Shown in pieces: positions 51,202 to 62,347 of a stretch of 63,395 bases of DNA. Every line of letters starts with the position of its first letter. Position 1 is the stretch's first letter. The stretch spans positions 1-63,395 of the forward strand of contig JAADJD010000025.1 in the NCBI GenBank assembly GCA_013150955.1, written 5' to 3'. Under the pieces are notes generated by a model. It had not been told where the DNA came from and did not search any database. It worked only from the letters and a program-made list of their open reading frames with translations. The position numbers were made by a program, and so were the translations under genes. The DNA comes from Calditrichota bacterium. Its GTDB lineage: Bacteria; Calditrichota; Calditrichia; RBG-13-44-9; J042.

Positions 51202-51776
51202 GTTTGAAATGGGCCTGTCGGCAGGCGATTGAGACGCAGCGTGCCAAGTGTCACCCAGCGCGTCCTGATCAAGTTTGAAATGGGCCTGTCGGCAGGCGAT
51301 TGAGACTTGTAAACGGGTGCCCGGTCCAATTGACCACCACCGCATGTTTGAAATGGGCCTGTCGGCAGGCGATTGAGACTCTATGGCCACTTCCGTGCGT
51401 CCATTTAACTGATCTCGTTTGAAATGGGCCTGTCGGCAGGCGATTGAGACACTGCAGACGCGGTAGAGTTGGGAGAAAAGACTGTCGCCCAGTTTGAAAT
51501 GGGCCTGTCGGCAGGCGATTGAGACCTTTAGCGCAGCCTTGCGCTCGCGACGGGCGGTCTCCGTTTGAAATGGGCCTGTCGGCAGGCGATTGAGACCAGG
51601 ATCCAGCCCTTATCGGTTGTCGGACTGCCTTCGCGTTTGAAATGGGCCTGTCGGCAGGCGATTGAGACAGCCGCAAGATGTGTTTTCCCCGTGCCCACAT
51701 CTCCAGTTTGAAATGGGCCTGTCGGCAGGCGATTGAGACATGGGCACTGGCCGCTCATCCGACTTCACCACCGTCG

Positions 51777-51872
51777 GTTTGAAATGGGCCTATCGATAAA
51801 ACAAACGGAAGCTTGATTCTTGTCCCTTGCCCCTTGCTATCTTGATGGGGCCTGTCGACAGGCGATTGAGAC
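51777..51872. mobile_element. Interrupted CRISPR repeat, array 1 unit 9
   Basis: This 96-nt unit is a 34-nt repeat carrying 62 extra nt. The left part is slightly decayed (GGGCCTATCGA), followed by ACAAACGGAAGCTTGATTC, heptamers of the CCTTGNN type, and a restart at GGGCCTGTCGACAGGCG. Confidence 0.9.
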
Positions 51873-51989
51873 CGCATGAAGTCATCATCTATCACCACGT
51901 CCGTATGGTGATAATTTGTTTGAAATGGGCCTGTCGACAGGCGATTGAGACAAAATTTCAGAAATCAGAAAATTCATACCGTTCCGCTC

Positions 51990-52085
51990 GTTTGAAATGG
52001 GCCTGTCGACAAAACAAACGGAAGCTTGATCCTTGTCCCTTGCCCCTTGCTACCTTGATAGGGCCTGTCGGCAGGCGATTGAGAC
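51990..52085. mobile_element. Interrupted CRISPR repeat, array 1 unit 11
   Basis: Same 96-nt length and site as unit 9. The left part ends GTCGAC, then AAACAAACGGAAGCTTGATC and the heptamer tract, with the repeat resuming at GGGCCTGTCGGCAGG. Confidence 0.92.
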
Positions 52086-52195
52086 AGTAGGCCGAATTGC
52101 GCCCGGCCGGGGACTTTGACAATCTGTTTGAAATGGGCCTGTCGGCAGGCAATTGAGACGGCAAAATGCGTTCTTTTTAGGTTAGAACCTCCCCG

Positions 52196-52291
52196 GTTTG
52201 AAATGGGCCTGTCGACAAAACAAACGGAAGCTTGATCCTTGTCCCTTGCCCCTTGCTACCTTGATGGGGCCTGTCGGCAGGCGATTGAGAC
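52196..52291. mobile_element. Interrupted CRISPR repeat, array 1 unit 13
   Basis: 96 nt, with an insert almost identical to that of unit 11 although the flanking spacers differ. Confidence 0.92.
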
Positions 52292-52478
52292 GGAAGCACC
52301 ACGTCGCCAGATTCGTCGGCTAGTTCAAGCAGTTTGAAATGGGCCTGTCGGCAGGCGATTGAGACAAAACTCCACTTTCACTTCCACATCAACACTAACA
52401 TTCGTGTTTGAAATGGGCCTGTCGGCAGGCGATTGAGACCTTCTGTGAAGCGGGTCATATAATATCATGAATAAAAAT

Positions 52479-52574
52479 GTTTGAAATGGGCCTGTCGACA
52501 AAACAAACGGAAGCTTGATCCTTGTCCCTTGCCCCTTGCCACCTTGATAGGGCCTGTCGGCAGGCGATTGAGAC
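52479..52574. mobile_element. Interrupted CRISPR repeat, array 1 unit 16
   Basis: 96 nt, same insert with one change (GCCACC for GCTACC) before the repeat resumes. Confidence 0.92.
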
Positions 52575-52611
52575 ACAAATCTTATCTGCTACAGACTTTA
52601 GCTCAGAAAAA

Positions 52612-52830
52612 GTTTGAAATGGGCCTACGGTAACGGCTGATGGCTGCTCAATTTTTTCCTTGTCCCTTGACCCCTGGCCCTTATTCCTTGAATGGGCCTG
52701 TCGGCAAATAAACAGAAGCTTGATCCTTGTCCCTTGGCCCTTGCCCCTTGTTCCTTGATCCTTGTTCCTTGATCCCTGCCCCCCTGCTACCTTGAAGGGG
52801 CCTGTCGGTAAGGGGCAGCGAAAAACCACC
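52612..52830. mobile_element. Terminal, doubly interrupted and decayed repeat of array 1
   Basis: Two inserts lie in series. The first has an unrelated head (ACGGTAACGGCTGATGGC) before its heptamers. The second has the usual head and an expanded tract of about nine CCTTGNN-type units. The repeat hairpin segment GGGCCTGTCGG appears after each, but the final copy drifts into TAAGGGGCAGCG and lacks the 3' handle. Confidence 0.85.
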
Positions 52831-53134
52831 TCAATTACCTATTCCGGCGCATCTCTTTTGATTGAAAAAGGCCTGTCAATGGGCGATGCGAATGATTTAA
52901 AAGGGAAAAATTGCCCCCACTTTTTACTTTACGAATTACCCGGACGAACACAAGTAATAAACCCAGATAATGCAATAAACCACGAATCACGCGAATGAAA
53001 CCCAAAAATCAGAAATAGAGCCCTTTAAAAACCCTAAAAATTTGGAAAAATGGAACCCAGTTCCTACTTTTACTTAAGCAAACAAATTGGGAATTTCAGA
53101 AAATAAACGCTGTATTAAAAACGGAGGGATGCCG
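52831..53134. other. Post-array region with repeat remnants
   Basis: Holds a possible relic of the repeat (GGCCTGTCAATGGGCGAT at about 52871) and a short piece of the dispersed intergenic repeat (about 52965-53000, copy I). No gene is seen before the CARF protein. Confidence 0.5.
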
Positions 53135-53848
53135 ATGAAAAACTTCTGGATTCTGTTACTGGCGGCAATCGTATTCACAGGTTTTTATTTAATTGGAAGT
53201 CTACTCCCCACAGAAATTATCTCCTCACTGGATCGGGCCGGGATTATACTGGGGTATTTGCTATCCTGCCTATCCATTGGAGCCGTCATTGTGGTCTACT
53301 TTAACAGGTTCCGGATTAAACGCTGGTTTCTGAAAAACAATTACGACAACATCGGGGAAAAATTTCACATTCCGGCGGAGGATATCGAAGCCATGGTCAT
53401 TCCGGTAAGTCGCAGAGAGCAACCAGAATGGATTCTTCGCTGGTTGAAGCCTCAAAAGGTTTCCCTGTTGTACTCTCAAAAAACCCTGCCAGATGCCAGG
53501 GAAATCATGGAAACATTTGACAAACAAGTCGAATTCTTTCCCCCGAAAGATTCCCTGCAAAATAATGAATACATTCTCCATAATCCTTTCGACCCTCACG
53601 ACAGTTACACATTAACCAAGCAGTATATTCGGAGATTTCTGGAAATTGGAATTCCCCCAAATAAAATCTTTGTCGATGCCACGGGCGGAACCGTGCCCAT
53701 GTCCATTGGTTGCTTTCAAGCCGGAGAAGAAATGGGTGTGTCATCCATTTACGTAATTGGTACAGACAACGGGTTCATCACGAATCCTACAAAAAAGGAA
53801 CACGGGATACCAATCTTCTTAAGCGATAAGACGGGAGTACCCCAATAA
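53135..53848 (+). CDS. Membrane CARF protein (candidate cyclic-oligoadenylate receptor)
   Basis: The ATG at 53135 has GGAGGG six bases upstream and is preferred to a TTG at 53087. The 237 residues have two transmembrane helices (about 3-22 and 32-53), a basic linker, and a Rossmann-like CARF domain. The signature CARF loop is DATGGTVPMSIGCFQAGEE from residue 181, and the first strand is AMVIPVSRREQPEWILRW. In type III CRISPR systems CARF domains bind cyclic oligoadenylates made by Cas10 and switch on an attached effector. Here the only other part is the membrane segment, so a ligand-gated membrane effector, like the CARF-membrane protein Cam1, is inferred. No nuclease or protease motif is seen. 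It lies between array 1 and the adaptation genes on the same strand. Confidence 0.85.
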   Translation: MKNFWILLLAAIVFTGFYLIGSLLPTEIISSLDRAGIILGYLLSCLSIGAVIVVYFNRFRIKRWFLKNNYDNIGEKFHIPAEDIEAMVIPVSRREQPEWILRWLKPQKVSLLYSQKTLPDAREIMETFDKQVEFFPPKDSLQNNEYILHNPFDPHDSYTLTKQYIRRFLEIGIPPNKIFVDATGGTVPMSIGCFQAGEEMGVSSIYVIGTDNGFITNPTKKEHGIPIFLSDKTGVPQ

Positions 53849-54894: not shown

Positions 54895-56511
54895 TTGAAC
54901 CGAATGAAGACGCCGTCCATCACCATGGAATCCAGTTACCTGACCCATCCATCGTGGGGCACCCTACTGGAGATTCCTTTACAAATTGTCCGTGTCGAAC
55001 TGGAGGTCACCCAGCCTGTACGATTTAAACATTTTTACCACGGAAACGTCATCCGTTCTCTGTTGTTGCATTTGTTCAAAGAAGAAGAGTTGCAAGCGGA
55101 TCATAATCTACCTGCCGGTGTGGTACCTGTCCCCGTGGAGAACGGATATCTTCACTATCAGCCGGGCGATTCTTATGTATTTGGTATTGTATTAATTGGC
55201 CATGCAGAAAATTTTCTGAATCGAATCCATACCCGATTAACCCGAAAAACCCACACTTCCAATGGTGTGCTTCGTTTGGGGGAAACGGTTCAATTACAGC
55301 AGTTTTATTCCCAGGCAGTCAATCTGGGGGAATTGTGTGATCGTATTATTGGAAAAAAAATCCAGCAATTTCGCATTCGCCTGCTCACGCCGGTCTGGAT
55401 AGACCGGGAAGCGCCGGATCGAGTCCCCGGACACAGCCGTTACGATCGCCAATTGTTCCGATTCGACATGATGATCAAAAAAATATTCGATCGACTCCGC
55501 AATTTATACCAGACGGGGACCCTATCCACTGCGGTCCCTCCAGCTCCGGATCCGGCATTTCACGCGTCGTTTAAAATTCACCATCAATATTTGACCTGGG
55601 TTGAATTACCCACTAAGAAACGACGTCACAATTACGGTGGGGTTGTGGGACAACTGCAGGTAACCGGTCCGCTGAACGAAGTTATCCTGCCACTGCTCCT
55701 GGGACAATTCATTCATATTGGAGAAAAAATCAACTTTGGTTTTGGCTATTACGATCTACCCGACCTATGCCCGGAACTCAGCCAATTCTGGCGTCCGGCG
55801 CAAACATTCGTCCAACGCATGGTGCAACCTGCGGTACTGGATGCCGCCTTTCGAAAATTGAAACAACGTAGCAAAATGCCAGGTGTGGATCAAATTGCCC
55901 TGGACGATCTGGAAGCGTTATATCCACAGTGGGAGTCTTTTCTAAGGGAGTATCTGTTTAAAGAAATATATAAGAAAAATTCTTTATTGGAACTTTTGCA
56001 AAAGGACTCTAAGCGAAGGTTGAATGATATATCTCTTATTGTACTTCTCGACCGCTGGTTACAGAACTCCTTACTGGTAGTTATGGAACCTGCAATAGAA
56101 ACGCTATTGGAAGACTGCAGCTATGCGTATCGCAAAAACTACAGTCGCCAGCGGGCCCGCGAAGCGTTGCGCCTGGCCTACAACGAAGGATACCGCTATG
56201 TACTGGAATCGGATATTGAAAACTTCTTTGACGTGGTGGAATGGGACATTCTTTTTCAAAAAATACAGGCCCTTTACCCTTACGATTCGATCATTGACCT
56301 CATCAAGCAATGGGTAACGGCCCCGGTTGATTTTCGAGGGCAGTGCATTCAACGGGAGAAAGGCCTACCGCAAGGGGCGGTCATTTCTCCACTACTTTCT
56401 AATCTATACCTGGATGAGTTCGATGAAAAGCTGCAACGCCTGGGGTTTCGCATCATCCGTTTTGCCGATGATTTCGTCATCTTGTGTAAAAATCGGGCGG
56501 AAGCCGAATAA
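54895..56511 (+). CDS. Cas6-reverse transcriptase part of Cas6-RT-Cas1, ended by an in-frame TAA
   Basis: The first 538 codons of a Cas6-RT-Cas1 adaptation protein. Residues about 1-290 form a Cas6-like RAMP region, with the glycine-rich loop GEKINFGFGYY at 276-286, which would cut the CRISPR transcript. Residues about 310-538 are a group II intron-like reverse transcriptase with the motif A segment LESDIENFFDVV, motif B GLPQGAVISPLLSNLYL and catalytic FADD at 523-526. The frame is stopped by TAA at 56509-56511, thirteen codons after FADD. The same frame then runs on for 438 sense codons into Cas1 with no other lesion. TTG at 54895 and ATG at 54904 are both possible starts. In intact relatives RT-Cas1 lets the system acquire spacers from RNA. 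Confidence 0.93.
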   Translation: MNRMKTPSITMESSYLTHPSWGTLLEIPLQIVRVELEVTQPVRFKHFYHGNVIRSLLLHLFKEEELQADHNLPAGVVPVPVENGYLHYQPGDSYVFGIVLIGHAENFLNRIHTRLTRKTHTSNGVLRLGETVQLQQFYSQAVNLGELCDRIIGKKIQQFRIRLLTPVWIDREAPDRVPGHSRYDRQLFRFDMMIKKIFDRLRNLYQTGTLSTAVPPAPDPAFHASFKIHHQYLTWVELPTKKRRHNYGGVVGQLQVTGPLNEVILPLLLGQFIHIGEKINFGFGYYDLPDLCPELSQFWRPAQTFVQRMVQPAVLDAAFRKLKQRSKMPGVDQIALDDLEALYPQWESFLREYLFKEIYKKNSLLELLQKDSKRRLNDISLIVLLDRWLQNSLLVVMEPAIETLLEDCSYAYRKNYSRQRAREALRLAYNEGYRYVLESDIENFFDVVEWDILFQKIQALYPYDSIIDLIKQWVTAPVDFRGQCIQREKGLPQGAVISPLLSNLYLDEFDEKLQRLGFRIIRFADDFVILCKNRAEAE

Positions 56512-57828
56512 GCGCAACAGGCAGCCCGTCAGGCCCTGGAAGCGCTGGACCTCCAGATGAAGGAAAGTAAAACGCGCATCACCCACTTTGACGAAGGCTT
56601 CCACTACCTGGGCTATCTGTTCTGCCGCTCCGTCATCCTGGAAACGTCCAAACAAGACCCTGACGATCCGTTCCGCTGGGAATTACTGGATGAATCCCGC
56701 ATTCCACCCAACAGCTGGCCGGCCCGCTGCCGCATTTCTGGCAAACCGCTCTCAGAATTCATTCAACAAACCCGATTCAAGCGCTTTAAGGAACTGTTTG
56801 ATCGACCGGCCACATTGCCAGACATTCCGGGTCTAAAACCGGTTTACCTGGGGAACTACCAACAAAAACTGCGGATCAAACACCAGAGCCTGCGCATCGA
56901 AGATACCCAGCAGCGATTGGCCGTTGCCCGCTATCCCATCCATAGTGTTCAATCGCTGGTGTTGCTGGGAAGCATACCCGTTAGTATGCCAACCCTTTAC
57001 CGATTACTCCGCAGGCAGATTCCGGTATTTTTATGCAATCGCCTGGGGGAACCCCTCGGGTTCATTCAACCGCAAGCCTTTATCCAGCCCGAACTATGGG
57101 TAAAACAGCAGCAACACTTTACCCAACCCGAATTTGCGCTTCAATTCAGTCAGGAGATTGTGAAAGCCAAAATTCACAATTACCTCCAGTGCATCCGTTT
57201 TGAGGAATCGCCCGAGATACAGGATATTTGCCACCAGCTGCTTCAACTTCAGCACAGTTGCGAAAATAAAACCACATTAAATGGGCTGCGCGGTGTGGAA
57301 GGACGTGCAGCAGCCCTTTTCTACCAGGCCTTTCAAATGGCAATTGGAGACGATTGGTGTTTCACCGGAAGATATCGACGGCCACCAACGGATCCCGTTA
57401 ATGCACTCCTTTCGCTGGGATATACGATTTTGTACCATCATCTGACCCTGATCATTTTACAATCCGGCCTGAATCCCTGGCAGGGCATCTATCACCAAAG
57501 CCGAAAAAATTATTGTGCCCTTAGCAGTGATATTCAAGAGGAGTTTCGTTTTCTGATTGACCGACTGATATTAACCTTGATTCGCCGTAAGCAACTAAAA
57601 CCCAGCGCTTTTCCCGCCCGGGAAAAAAGTGGCGGATATTACGTTTTGCCCCGGAACCAGAAAGCCGATTTCATTCAAAAAGTGGAAGCCAAATTTCTGG
57701 AACGCATCCGCTTGCGTCAGCCAGAGGGTGAATTTTCCTATCGGGAAGTGATGGTGCGGCAGGTTCACCAATTAAAACAAATTGTTCTGGGAGAACGATT
57801 GGAATACCAGGCATTCAGGAGACGATGA
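56512..57828 (+). CDS. cas1: RT tail and Cas1 integrase part of Cas6-RT-Cas1, downstream of the stop
   Basis: This continues the same reading frame after the TAA: the end of the RT (AQQAARQALEALDLQ ... HFDEGFHYLGYLF) and a complete Cas1. Catalytic residues of the integrase are present: Glu802 in GVEGRAAALFYQAF, His867 in GIYHQSRKN, and Asp879/Glu882 in SDIQEEFRFLI (numbering along the fused frame). The first ATG after the stop is at 56557, but no convincing ribosome site precedes it, so separate translation would be weak. The Cas1 moiety looks free of decay. Either the stop is recent, or it is read through, or the isolate's base was misread. The stop codon overlaps cas2's start (ATGA). Confidence 0.92.
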   Translation, partial: AQQAARQALEALDLQMKESKTRITHFDEGFHYLGYLFCRSVILETSKQDPDDPFRWELLDESRIPPNSWPARCRISGKPLSEFIQQTRFKRFKELFDRPATLPDIPGLKPVYLGNYQQKLRIKHQSLRIEDTQQRLAVARYPIHSVQSLVLLGSIPVSMPTLYRLLRRQIPVFLCNRLGEPLGFIQPQAFIQPELWVKQQQHFTQPEFALQFSQEIVKAKIHNYLQCIRFEESPEIQDICHQLLQLQHSCENKTTLNGLRGVEGRAAALFYQAFQMAIGDDWCFTGRYRRPPTDPVNALLSLGYTILYHHLTLIILQSGLNPWQGIYHQSRKNYCALSSDIQEEFRFLIDRLILTLIRRKQLKPSAFPAREKSGGYYVLPRNQKADFIQKVEAKFLERIRLRQPEGEFSYREVMVRQVHQLKQIVLGERLEYQAFRRR

Positions 57829-58115
57829 GCATGCATTATCTAATTTGCTATGACATCGAAGACGATCGGCAGCGGAGCCGAATGGCACATCTTCTGGAAG
57901 GATTTGGTGAACGCGTGCAGAAATCAGTATTTGAGTGTCAACTGGATCCCCCGGGAAGGCAGCGGTTGCTCAGGCGGATTCAGCAAGAGTTTGAACCACA
58001 GGGTCGGGATTCGATCCGAATCTACCCGCTCTGTGCAGACTGCTGTCGCCGGGCACTGGGGATGGGGCACGTTCCTTCATCTCCGTTGGCCCGGGTGGCA
58101 TACATTCACCTTTAA
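57825..58115 (+). CDS. cas2: CRISPR-associated endoribonuclease/integration factor Cas2
   Basis: Cas2 dimerises with Cas1 to form the spacer integration complex. The 96 residues have the ferredoxin-like fold, with catalytic-position Asp10 in LICYDIEDDRQRS and the typical RVQKSVFECQLDP strand, ending in RIYPLCADC. ATG at 57825 overlaps the cas1 stop; a second ATG two codons later is equally close to the CAGGAG ribosome site. Immediately followed by a dispersed repeat and leader 2. Confidence 0.96.
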   Translation: MSMHYLICYDIEDDRQRSRMAHLLEGFGERVQKSVFECQLDPPGRQRLLRRIQQEFEPQGRDSIRIYPLCADCCRRALGMGHVPSSPLARVAYIHL

Positions 58116-58597: not shown

Positions 58598-59326
58598 GTT
58601 TGAAATGGGCCTGTCGGCAGGCGATTGAGACACAGCTCCTCTCTCTTCTCGAGAAGCTCCCATGCCTCCTCGGTTTGAAATGGGCCTGTCGGCAGGCGAT
58701 TGAGACAATCAATCGTCCACAAGGAGGCAAACTTTTGGCAACTTCGTTTGAAATGGGCCTGTCGGCAGGCGATTGAGACTCATATAAACCTCCTCGCCCC
58801 GTGAGATGCGTCAGCTATCTCAGTTTGAAATGGGCCTGTCGGCAGGCGATTGAGACGATTTAACTTTAAATCGCTCCATTACAAGGTCGTAATAGAGCGT
58901 TTGAAATGGGCCTGTCGGCAGGCGATTGAGACATAGACGTCTCTTGCATCCTCCCCTTTGTCGTCGGCAGCTGTTTGAAATGGGCCTGTCGGCAGGCGAT
59001 TGAGACTTCTTGCCATGATAACCTCCTTTTTTAGGAGGTTTTGTTTGAAATGGGCCTGTCGGCAGGCGATTGAGACTCAGAGCTCAACTTGGGAAGGTCG
59101 CGGTAAAGCTCGTTTGAAATGGGCCTGTCGGCAGGCGATTGAGACACGAGGCGATAGTGCCATCCGGCCCAGTAACGGTTCGTTTGAAATGGGCCTGTCG
59201 GCAGGCGATTGAGACCTTTGCTGACCAGGCAAAGCAGGATGGAGTAACCCCGCGTTTGAAATGGGCCTGTCGGCAGGCGATTGAGACGCTCAAAATTATA
59301 AATCTTAAAAATATCTGAGCGAGTAA

Positions 59327-59421
59327 GTTTGAAATGGGCCTGTCGGCAAATAAACGGAAGCTTGATCCTTGTCCCCTGTCCCTTGCTACCTTGATGGGGC
59401 CTGTCGGCAGGCGATTGAGAC
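59327..59421. mobile_element. Interrupted CRISPR repeat, array 2 unit 11
   Basis: 95 nt. Breaks after GGGCCTGTCGGCA, then AATAAACGGAAGCTTGATCC and heptamers, resuming at GGGGCCTGTCGGCAGG. Confidence 0.92.
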
Positions 59422-59461
59422 GTTTTTTTCCGCCTCGCGGGCAGAGAATTTCCGCCCGCAT

Positions 59462-59560
59462 GTTTGAAATGGGCCTGTCGGCAAACAAAAAGAGGCTTGA
59501 TCCTTGCTCCTTGTCCCCTGCTCCTTGAAATAAATGGGCCTGTCGGCAGGCGATTGAGAC
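59462..59560. mobile_element. Interrupted CRISPR repeat, array 2 unit 12
   Basis: 99 nt. Head varies (AACAAAAAGAGGCTTGATCC), and the repeat resumes after CCTTGAAATAA at ATGGGCCTGTCGGCA, showing a duplication of 15 nt. Confidence 0.92.
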
Positions 59561-59605
59561 GTTCAAGGCAGGAACAACAGAGGGGGAAGTAGAAACAACT
59601 GTAGC

Positions 59606-59707
59606 GTTTGAAATGGGCCTGTCGGCAAATAAACGGAAGCTTGATCCTTGCCCCTTGCCCCCTGCCCCTTGCTACCTTGATGGGGCTTGTCGGCAGGCGA
59701 TTGAGTC
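59606..59707. mobile_element. Interrupted CRISPR repeat, array 2 unit 13
   Basis: 102 nt, with one extra heptamer relative to unit 11 and a decayed right half (GGGGCTTGTCGG, ATTGAGTC). Confidence 0.9.
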
Positions 59708-59981: not shown

Positions 59982-61679
59982 ATGGCTTTCATTGTGGCTT
60001 TCGACACCGATAAGATTAAACAGTACATTTTTGCCACCAATAAACTCAAAGAAATCCGTGGGGCCAGTGCCATTCTGGATGAGCTGAATGAATATGAAAC
60101 CCTCAACCTGCTTCCCAAGGGGAAAGGGAATTATGATTTTGACCGCAACGAAAACGTTTGGAAATGGAATGGGAAGGATATGAAAACAGATGACTTAGAA
60201 TGGGAGGTTATTTTTGTTGGGGGTGGATCGGGGATGGTGGTATTTAAAAACAAAAATACGGCCACTAAGTTTTGCAGCGATTTGGAAAAAAGATACTATA
60301 CCTTTAGTGAAGGTGGAGCATCGATAACAACAGCAATTATTGAAACCGACGATCTGACTAATTTTCAATTACTTTATCAACGCCTTCAATTCAAATTACG
60401 TCAAAATAAAGATGCCAGGTATCAAATCTCTCAAACCTTGACCCATCCATTTTTTAGATATTGCGATAGTGATGGAAATTTGTATGCAGAAAAAACCGAT
60501 GGGAAAATTGCTTTCCGCGATGAATATTTTTTATCTGCTCAAATTAGAAGAAAAAGAGAATATGCCAAAAAAGGACGCGTTATATTTAAAAAATTCATCC
60601 AATTTCTTTTGAACGACAAAAACCAAAACTTTTCAAATTGGAGATATCTTGAATCCAATCTTAACAAAATTTTCAAAAATTTTGAGAATGTTATTTCAAG
60701 TAAAAATGGATATAAAGATATTCCCAATTCTTTTCCTGATGACATCACCGACCTTGAAGATGATCGAGGTTACATCGGTTTGATCTATGCAGACGCGAAT
60801 CGAATGGGTGAGCGCTTAGAGCAAATAAAAAGTAAGGAAGCTTACTCGTATTTCAGTAAAACCATTAAATATTGCAATGAAACGGCAATCTTTAACGCAT
60901 TAGCCAATTATATTAAACCAAAAATAATATCAACGAATAAAGGTTATAAAATTGAACTCATACCTTTTGAGATTTTCCTCCTTGGTGGGGACGACATCAT
61001 CCTTGCTGTTCCTGGTACTTGTGCATTGGAGATAGCAAGATCATATTTAGATAATTTTAAAAATTTTACAGCTAACAATTTAAGTGGCTACACTAAGGGC
61101 AATGATTTTAATAACCCATTTTTCGGAAATGGCATATCCATGTCTGCAGGTGTGGTCTTTGCTCATGGAAATTACCCTTTGCATCTCTTACTCAAATACG
61201 CCACTGAATTACAAAAGAGTGCAAAATGGAAGAGCAGGGAGATGCAAAAACAATCGAACAAAAATGGAGAAGAAGTGAATTGCATAGATTTTGAAATTAT
61301 AAAACAAAGTCTACTTCCAGATATAAAAAGCATTAGACAAACCTTTGAAGATAAATTTACAGGAAAAAGTCTCAATTTGTATAAAAGACCCTATACAACT
61401 GAAGAAATGAATGAGTTAATCAGTGAAATCCATTGTTGGAAGAAAAACTCTTTCCCAAAGAATAAGCTAAATGAAATGTATGACTTGCTACATAAAGGAC
61501 GAATGCAAGCACAAGTTGGGTTTTTGAGGATTCTTCGTCGACTCCCGGAAGAAATTCAAAAACATTTGATTCACAATTATGTAATGAAGAACATATTTCC
61601 ATGGGAAAAAAACGAGGCAGGACAGTATACTACCCCATTTTTTGATTTAATCGAAGTTTATGAATTCATATCAGAATGA
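59982..61679 (+). CDS. cas10: Cas10, HD-less, with GGDD polymerase/cyclase motif
   Basis: The large subunit of a type III interference complex. The 565 residues begin directly with the first Palm-like domain (VAFDTDKIKQYIFATNKLKEIRGAS), and there is no N-terminal HD nuclease. The second Palm domain carries YADANRMGERL from residue 269 and the active-site GGDD at 335-338 (LLGGDDIILAVPG). In the family GGDD makes cyclic oligoadenylates when target RNA is bound, while HD cuts DNA. This protein should therefore signal but not cut DNA. The membrane CARF protein upstream is a fitting receptor. The gene is visibly more AT-rich than Cas6-RT-Cas1 and is followed after 32 bp by the RAMP gene. Confidence 0.93.
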   Translation: MAFIVAFDTDKIKQYIFATNKLKEIRGASAILDELNEYETLNLLPKGKGNYDFDRNENVWKWNGKDMKTDDLEWEVIFVGGGSGMVVFKNKNTATKFCSDLEKRYYTFSEGGASITTAIIETDDLTNFQLLYQRLQFKLRQNKDARYQISQTLTHPFFRYCDSDGNLYAEKTDGKIAFRDEYFLSAQIRRKREYAKKGRVIFKKFIQFLLNDKNQNFSNWRYLESNLNKIFKNFENVISSKNGYKDIPNSFPDDITDLEDDRGYIGLIYADANRMGERLEQIKSKEAYSYFSKTIKYCNETAIFNALANYIKPKIISTNKGYKIELIPFEIFLLGGDDIILAVPGTCALEIARSYLDNFKNFTANNLSGYTKGNDFNNPFFGNGISMSAGVVFAHGNYPLHLLLKYATELQKSAKWKSREMQKQSNKNGEEVNCIDFEIIKQSLLPDIKSIRQTFEDKFTGKSLNLYKRPYTTEEMNELISEIHCWKKNSFPKNKLNEMYDLLHKGRMQAQVGFLRILRRLPEEIQKHLIHNYVMKNIFPWEKNEAGQYTTPFFDLIEVYEFISE

Positions 61680-61711: not shown

Positions 61712-62347
61712 ATGATCTATTCCATTACAATTGAATTTACATCCCCCCTGCATATTGGTAGTGGGATGGGAATGGGAAAATTAATAGATTTGCGTATTGT
61801 TCGAGATTCGAATAATAATATTTACTTGCCCGGTTCTACCGTAAAAGGTGTGCTACGGAGCGCCTGTAATCGCATCGCTCTGGAAAATCCTGCAGAGTTT
61901 AGCTCACGTCCCCCATGCAGTGGAAAGGATTCTGAGGGCATTTGCAAAGAGGATCCCTTTTGCACTATTTGTATCCTGTTCGGAACACCGTTTATCGAAG
62001 GTAAATTACGGTTTTTCGATCTGAATTTTGAAGCTGCTGATATGTTATTTCATGATATTCTGAAATTGGACCCTTTGAAGATTTATCCAGCTCAAATTAA
62101 GACGTCAACCAAACTTTCCCGTTACTTTCACACAGTTAGCCCAAAACAATTGTACAGTTATGAAATGACACCGCGAAATGTGATATTTAAAGGGAAACTT
62201 GAAGCACGTGGTAGCCTTTCCCCCCAGGAAGAAAATTTGTTAAAATATGCCAGCAAATATCTGTCTCACATCGGTGGTATGAAATCTCGCGGATTAGGAC
62301 GGATTAAAGAATTTAAAATTGTAAAGACCGAGGGTTATTCACAATGA
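61712..62347 (+). CDS. Csm3-like Cas7-group RAMP protein
   Basis: A 211-residue backbone subunit of the type III complex. Features: RAMP N-terminus ITIEFTSPLHIGSGMGMGKL, a candidate target-RNA-cutting Asp26 (LIDLRIVRD), the SxxKGVLRSA segment, a four-Cys zinc region (Cys69, Cys78, Cys84, Cys87, ending CILFG), and the C-terminal glycine-rich loop GGMKSRGLGRIKEF. GAGGAGA precedes the start. The stop overlaps the next gene's start (ATGA). Subtype III-D complexes carry several Csm3-like subunits, so more are expected past the window. Confidence 0.93.
   Translation: MIYSITIEFTSPLHIGSGMGMGKLIDLRIVRDSNNNIYLPGSTVKGVLRSACNRIALENPAEFSSRPPCSGKDSEGICKEDPFCTICILFGTPFIEGKLRFFDLNFEAADMLFHDILKLDPLKIYPAQIKTSTKLSRYFHTVSPKQLYSYEMTPRNVIFKGKLEARGSLSPQEENLLKYASKYLSHIGGMKSRGLGRIKEFKIVKTEGYSQ

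Follow-up and report, generated by a model that had tools for sequence, protein, structure and literature searches.

The Cas6-RT-Cas1 gene of this Calditrichota genome is best explained as a naturally damaged type III adaptation gene (probability about 0.6), in which the reverse transcriptase (RT) has been removed by a nonsense codon together with a scrambled fingers block, Cas6 has been kept, Cas1 is lost or made at very low levels, and spacer acquisition is frozen or nearly so. Most likely this is a case of RNA recording lost naturally, not of a new mechanism, and the nonsense lesion is probably both natural and recent.

Interruption of the Cas6-RT-Cas1 gene

In the sequence as given, codon 539 of a 977-codon Cas6-RT-Cas1 frame (54895-57828, + strand, as are the domains, cas2, effector genes and two arrays of the window given below) is a TAA at positions 56509-56511 of the window, which is the whole 63,395-nucleotide stretch of DNA analyzed. 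This codon lies 13 codons past the FADD motif of the RT active site (amino acids 523-526, 56461-56472) and is the only stop within the frame. Instead of one uninterrupted coding sequence there are thus two. ORF1 (54895-56511) encodes Cas6 and most of the RT in 538 amino acids, starting at a TTG with a ribosome site or, by comparison with a relative of the same genus, at ATG 54925. The frame past the stop is open for 438 codons, within which ORF2 (56557-57828), counted from the first in-frame ATG, encodes the RT tail (RT6-7 region) and Cas1 in 423 amino acids. Both ORFs share one frame, open on either side of the TAA. A preliminary description of this DNA had reported both the position of the stop relative to FADD and the continuation of the same frame through the rest of the RT and Cas1, and the sequence bears this out.

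When the frame was read through the stop, Pfam and PADLOC matches placed Cas6, RT and Cas1 in that order, with Pfam boundaries at amino acids 161-286 for Cas6 (PF10040, 55375-55752), 371-574 for RVT_1 and 651-931 for Cas1 (PF01867, 56845-57687). The catalytic aspartates of the RT (D440, and D525 and D526 of FADD) are present, as are the Cas1 residues that are invariant among relatives (E802, H867, D879, and E882), among them the conserved catalytic residues of that domain. A cas2 gene identified by Pfam (57825-58115) overlaps the end of cas1; linked to the gene are CRISPR arrays on both of its sides and, downstream, type III effector genes, cas10 (59982-61679) and a csm3-like Cas7 gene (61712-62347). 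An in-frame TAA amid these domains, cas2, the arrays and the effector genes indicates that the stop is real in the given sequence.

Comparison with relatives

The relative of the same genus (contig WFTQ01000019.1) has one uninterrupted 970-amino-acid gene that shares 65% identity and carries a sense codon where the stop is here. The gene is whole, too, in a relative of the same class with 35-36% identity, and the protein of that relative matches one on a contig labeled Calditrichota. In a survey of 385 genomes with an RT-Cas1 model, all ten of the other fused RT-Cas1 frames were free of stops. The one further stop in that survey, a TAA in another genome (G103), was rejected as an ordinary boundary between RT and cas1 genes after RT7. 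The TAG in each of two other genomes (G022 and G023) was also rejected, being the ordinary stop of cas6 before cas10 in the same frame. The preliminary description had proposed comparing the codon in relatives; the comparison yields a sense codon in the closest one and a stop shared by none. Since the residue at the stop site is variable among homologues, the side chain there is unimportant, and only the stop matters.

As a stand-in for a whole-genome count of broken genes, matches to two unrelated domain families were examined in this genome, and none of the 93 contained an in-frame stop, which indicates that the assembly is not littered with false stops. Among the options that the preliminary description had listed, a recent nonsense knock-out fits best with these stop-free matches and with the intact relatives. 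No paper naming Cas6-RT-Cas1 together with a stop codon turned up when the open literature was searched.

The position of the stop also bears on its origin. Where RT and Cas1 are encoded as separate pairs elsewhere, the RT ORF runs to amino acid 582-587 and Cas1 starts near amino acid 645-666, so that the gene boundary falls between RT7 and Cas1; the boundary here is at amino acid 539. Because the stop is away from this joint, a lesion is favored over an evolved fission, and from its placement in the sequence the TAA looks like the former.

A scrambled block in the RT fingers

The preliminary description considered the protein otherwise intact, with a single lesion. That premise fails, as a second RT defect lies about 460 bases upstream of the TAA, which makes loss of the RT the first consequence of the damage, with Cas1 separated as well. 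In codons 347-385 (55933-56049), corresponding to the RT0/RT1 region of the fingers, the sequence is scrambled and AT-rich (GC 25-33%). A codon-by-codon alignment with the relative of the same genus gave 15-25% amino acid and 37-40% nucleotide identity in this block, versus 55-100% amino acid identity in the adjoining stretches. Differences at codon positions 1, 2 and 3 were 0.79, 0.49 and 0.69 within the block, compared with 0.20-0.33, 0.07-0.26 and 0.50-0.66 elsewhere. Four of the five block residues that are invariant in six outgroups have changed here, and none has changed in the relative.

With leave-one-out profiles, the block scored 3.8 bits, versus 29.1-75.7 bits in 17 other RTs, while the RT block that follows it scored highest of all the RTs, at 87.1 bits, and the block reaching to the stop scored 98.7 bits. 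An RT0/RT1 arginine found in 17 of 17 distinct homologues is missing, as is a proline found in most of them. The earlier statement that every catalytic residue is present is borne out for Cas1 and not for the RT, where this conserved fingers arginine is lost. An alternative alignment puts R375 in the role of the lost arginine, with two residues inserted; in that case the block may have diverged and not be dead. In a lineage-specific rate test, the block was significant with two of three single outgroups, and the patch against the rest with only one; the profile score is the stronger evidence for a defect. Structure models have fingers strands in the protein of the relative and none here, which may lend weak support to a defect, the models being of low confidence (mean pLDDT 67 and 62).

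Paired frameshifts were rejected as the cause of the block, because clear homology is confined to the actual frame, without a match in any other frame or on the other strand. No copy of the block was found in this genome and no match in plasmids or phages, so that a diversity-generating template was not seen either. Outside the block, the RT shows good conservation and no general decay, which counts against the reading as a damaged gene.

Consequences for Cas6 and the RT

In the Thiomicrospira enzyme, the substitutions D540A and K574A each abolish RT activity and spare Cas6 processing (numbering of the paper, from which that of the PDB chain is offset by three; PMC8102632). By alignment, the equivalent of K574, a lysine of the RT helix whose role is known from that study, is K559 (56569-56571) here. 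The TAA falls between FADD and this essential lysine, inside the RT palm, so ORF1 should keep Cas6 and have no RT. By analogy, Cas6 should still be made from ORF1, and we infer that the RT, along with RNA-spacer capture, has very probably been lost. The nonsense codon in the palm and the scrambled fingers block together would prevent reverse transcription and the capture of spacers from RNA, and the Cas6 domain supplied by ORF1 would allow crRNA processing and interference to continue.

Production of Cas1

Cas1 is no longer part of the fusion. The first in-frame start past the TAA, ATG 56557, is 45 nt downstream, with a predicted ribosome pairing of -3.3 kcal/mol, near the local background; the starts of cas2, cas10 and csm3 have values of -6.2 to -8.7. 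The relative of the same genus carries the same methionine internally in its intact protein, which indicates that this ATG was inherited and not selected as a start. The preliminary description had listed reinitiation at 56557; coupled low-level reinitiation is possible over such a distance, but the inherited methionine and the near-background pairing speak against it. Judged from the sequence, Cas1 would be lost or weak unless translation restarts at this ATG, and with Cas1 lost or very low, acquisition would be frozen or nearly so. If made, the ORF2 product would consist of Cas1 and a stub of the RT, and it could be functional, since Marinomonas Cas1 without its RT domain takes up DNA spacers (PMC11014452).

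At conserved sites, Cas1 has not changed significantly more than its counterpart in the same genus, a pattern compatible with a stop of young age as well as with a Cas1 that is still used. The lack of further decay in the Cas1 and cas2 frames is similarly compatible with a Cas1 in use and is a point against the preferred reading. The cas1 in ORF2 is the sole complete one found in the genome. A candidate second copy was rejected, as only an N-terminal fragment of another cas1 was found (contig C12, L002:83-274), with the remainder of the gene not following.

Arrays and neighboring genes

Three arrays with one common repeat and a conserved leader of about 240 nt were found in the genome. Array 1 (51202-52808) has eight perfect repeats at its leader end and array 2 (58598-59707) has ten, and all of the repeat damage in these two is at the far end. 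The pristine leader-end repeats indicate that spacers were being acquired until recently; this agrees with a young stop but cannot date it.

The far-end repeats (51777-52808 and 59327-59707 in the window, and L059 on contig C34) are split by roughly 50-nt inserts in which CCTTG heptads abound (AAACAAACGGAAGCTTGATCCTTGTCCCTTGCCCCTTGCT...), flanked on both sides by part of the repeat (GGGCCTGTCGGCA). The inserts resemble a small repetitive element that invades CRISPR repeats. Array 3 (L059, contig C34) has the same repeat and leader, with a broken cas2 remnant upstream of the leader, the vestige of an adaptation cassette that had been duplicated. Upstream of the adaptation gene, a CARF protein of the membrane-helix type is encoded at 53087-53848 (CARF8-CARF_TM model, E = 1.4e-29). 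On contig C17, the stretch L060:2068-4792 contains a separate, stand-alone Cas6 followed, as read by eye, by a Cmr1-like ORF, with a C-terminus resembling a nucleotidyltransferase (MNT) domain, and by a small HEPN-like ORF.

Alternative explanations

The gene may instead have been split into two working parts, an explanation that we regard as unlikely though deserving of attention. Coupled reinitiation at ATG 56557 would produce an RT-less Cas1 that acquires DNA spacers with Cas2, ORF1 would serve as Cas6, and the system would have changed from acquiring both RNA and DNA to acquiring DNA alone. In favor of this, the distance to the restart is short, the RT has two lesions whereas Cas1 is without excess changes at conserved sites, the Marinomonas Cas6-RTdelta-Cas1 protein acquires DNA spacers (PMC11014452), and RT point mutants retain most DNA ligation (PMC8102632). 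However, the ribosome site at the ATG is weak and the methionine is inherited rather than new, and a stop inside the palm, off the natural joint, would leave Cas1 carrying a stub of unfolded RT. It is doubtful that the locus represents a natural switch to DNA-only memory, in which the RT was lost by two lesions, acquisition was kept via a Cas1 encoded by the gene's second half, and Cas6-RT became a free crRNA maturase.

A base-calling or assembly error as the source of the TAA seems improbable. A single base would account for the stop, with everything downstream intact, and the true gene would be one open frame with its fingers block still scrambled; but no stop was seen in the 93 other domain matches, and the error would leave unexplained the block, which cannot itself be a single-base error. 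Programmed or leaky read-through of the TAA, which would give some full-length protein and had been listed in the preliminary description, is very improbable. The long open frame past the stop is what such a mechanism would need, but the stop is conserved in no relative, and the RNA downstream of it folds no better than shuffled sequences (z = 0.05), so that neither a conserved stop nor a stimulatory structure was found. A TAA followed by G, as here, is an efficient stop context and not a leaky one.

Comparison with known systems

RT-Cas1 modules are few, and why the RT is kept in them is not settled. With Cas6, Cas1 and arrays that look healthy and an RT damaged at two sites, this locus offers a natural test of whether a system that keeps its other parts can do without RNA acquisition. 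Should the lesion simply be recent, it would show a route of module decay in which acquisition is lost before interference.

The Cas6-RT-Cas1/Cas2 of Thiomicrospira (PDB 7KFT, 7KFU; PMC8102632) is like the gene described here in its three-domain order, FADD motif, RT-helix lysine and cas2 partner. However, the Thiomicrospira protein is continuous and its RT is active, whereas the present frame is interrupted between FADD and the lysine and its fingers block is unmatched. Marinomonas mediterranea MMB-1 has the same type of fusion (PMC11014452), and the closest parallel to a Cas1 that goes on acquiring from DNA without an RT is the laboratory deletion of its RT. In that engineered variant, Cas6 and Cas1 stay in one protein, whereas here the damage is natural and the gene is divided. 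The gene of the same-genus relative (WFTQ01000019.1) agrees in domain order, and after it come cas2 and an array whose repeat is almost identical; it differs in being uninterrupted and in having a normal RT fingers block. In Gloeothece, Microcystis and Nostoc plasmids, RT and Cas1 are also on separate ORFs before cas2, but the division there comes after RT7 and not inside the palm. In the RT-Cas1 gene of Rhodococcus ruber plasmid pYYL1.1 (L067:1100-1525), the RT part is likewise broken by in-frame stops, and Cas1 is open and annotated; the interruption there consists of a short duplication located between RT1 and RT2, an independent event.
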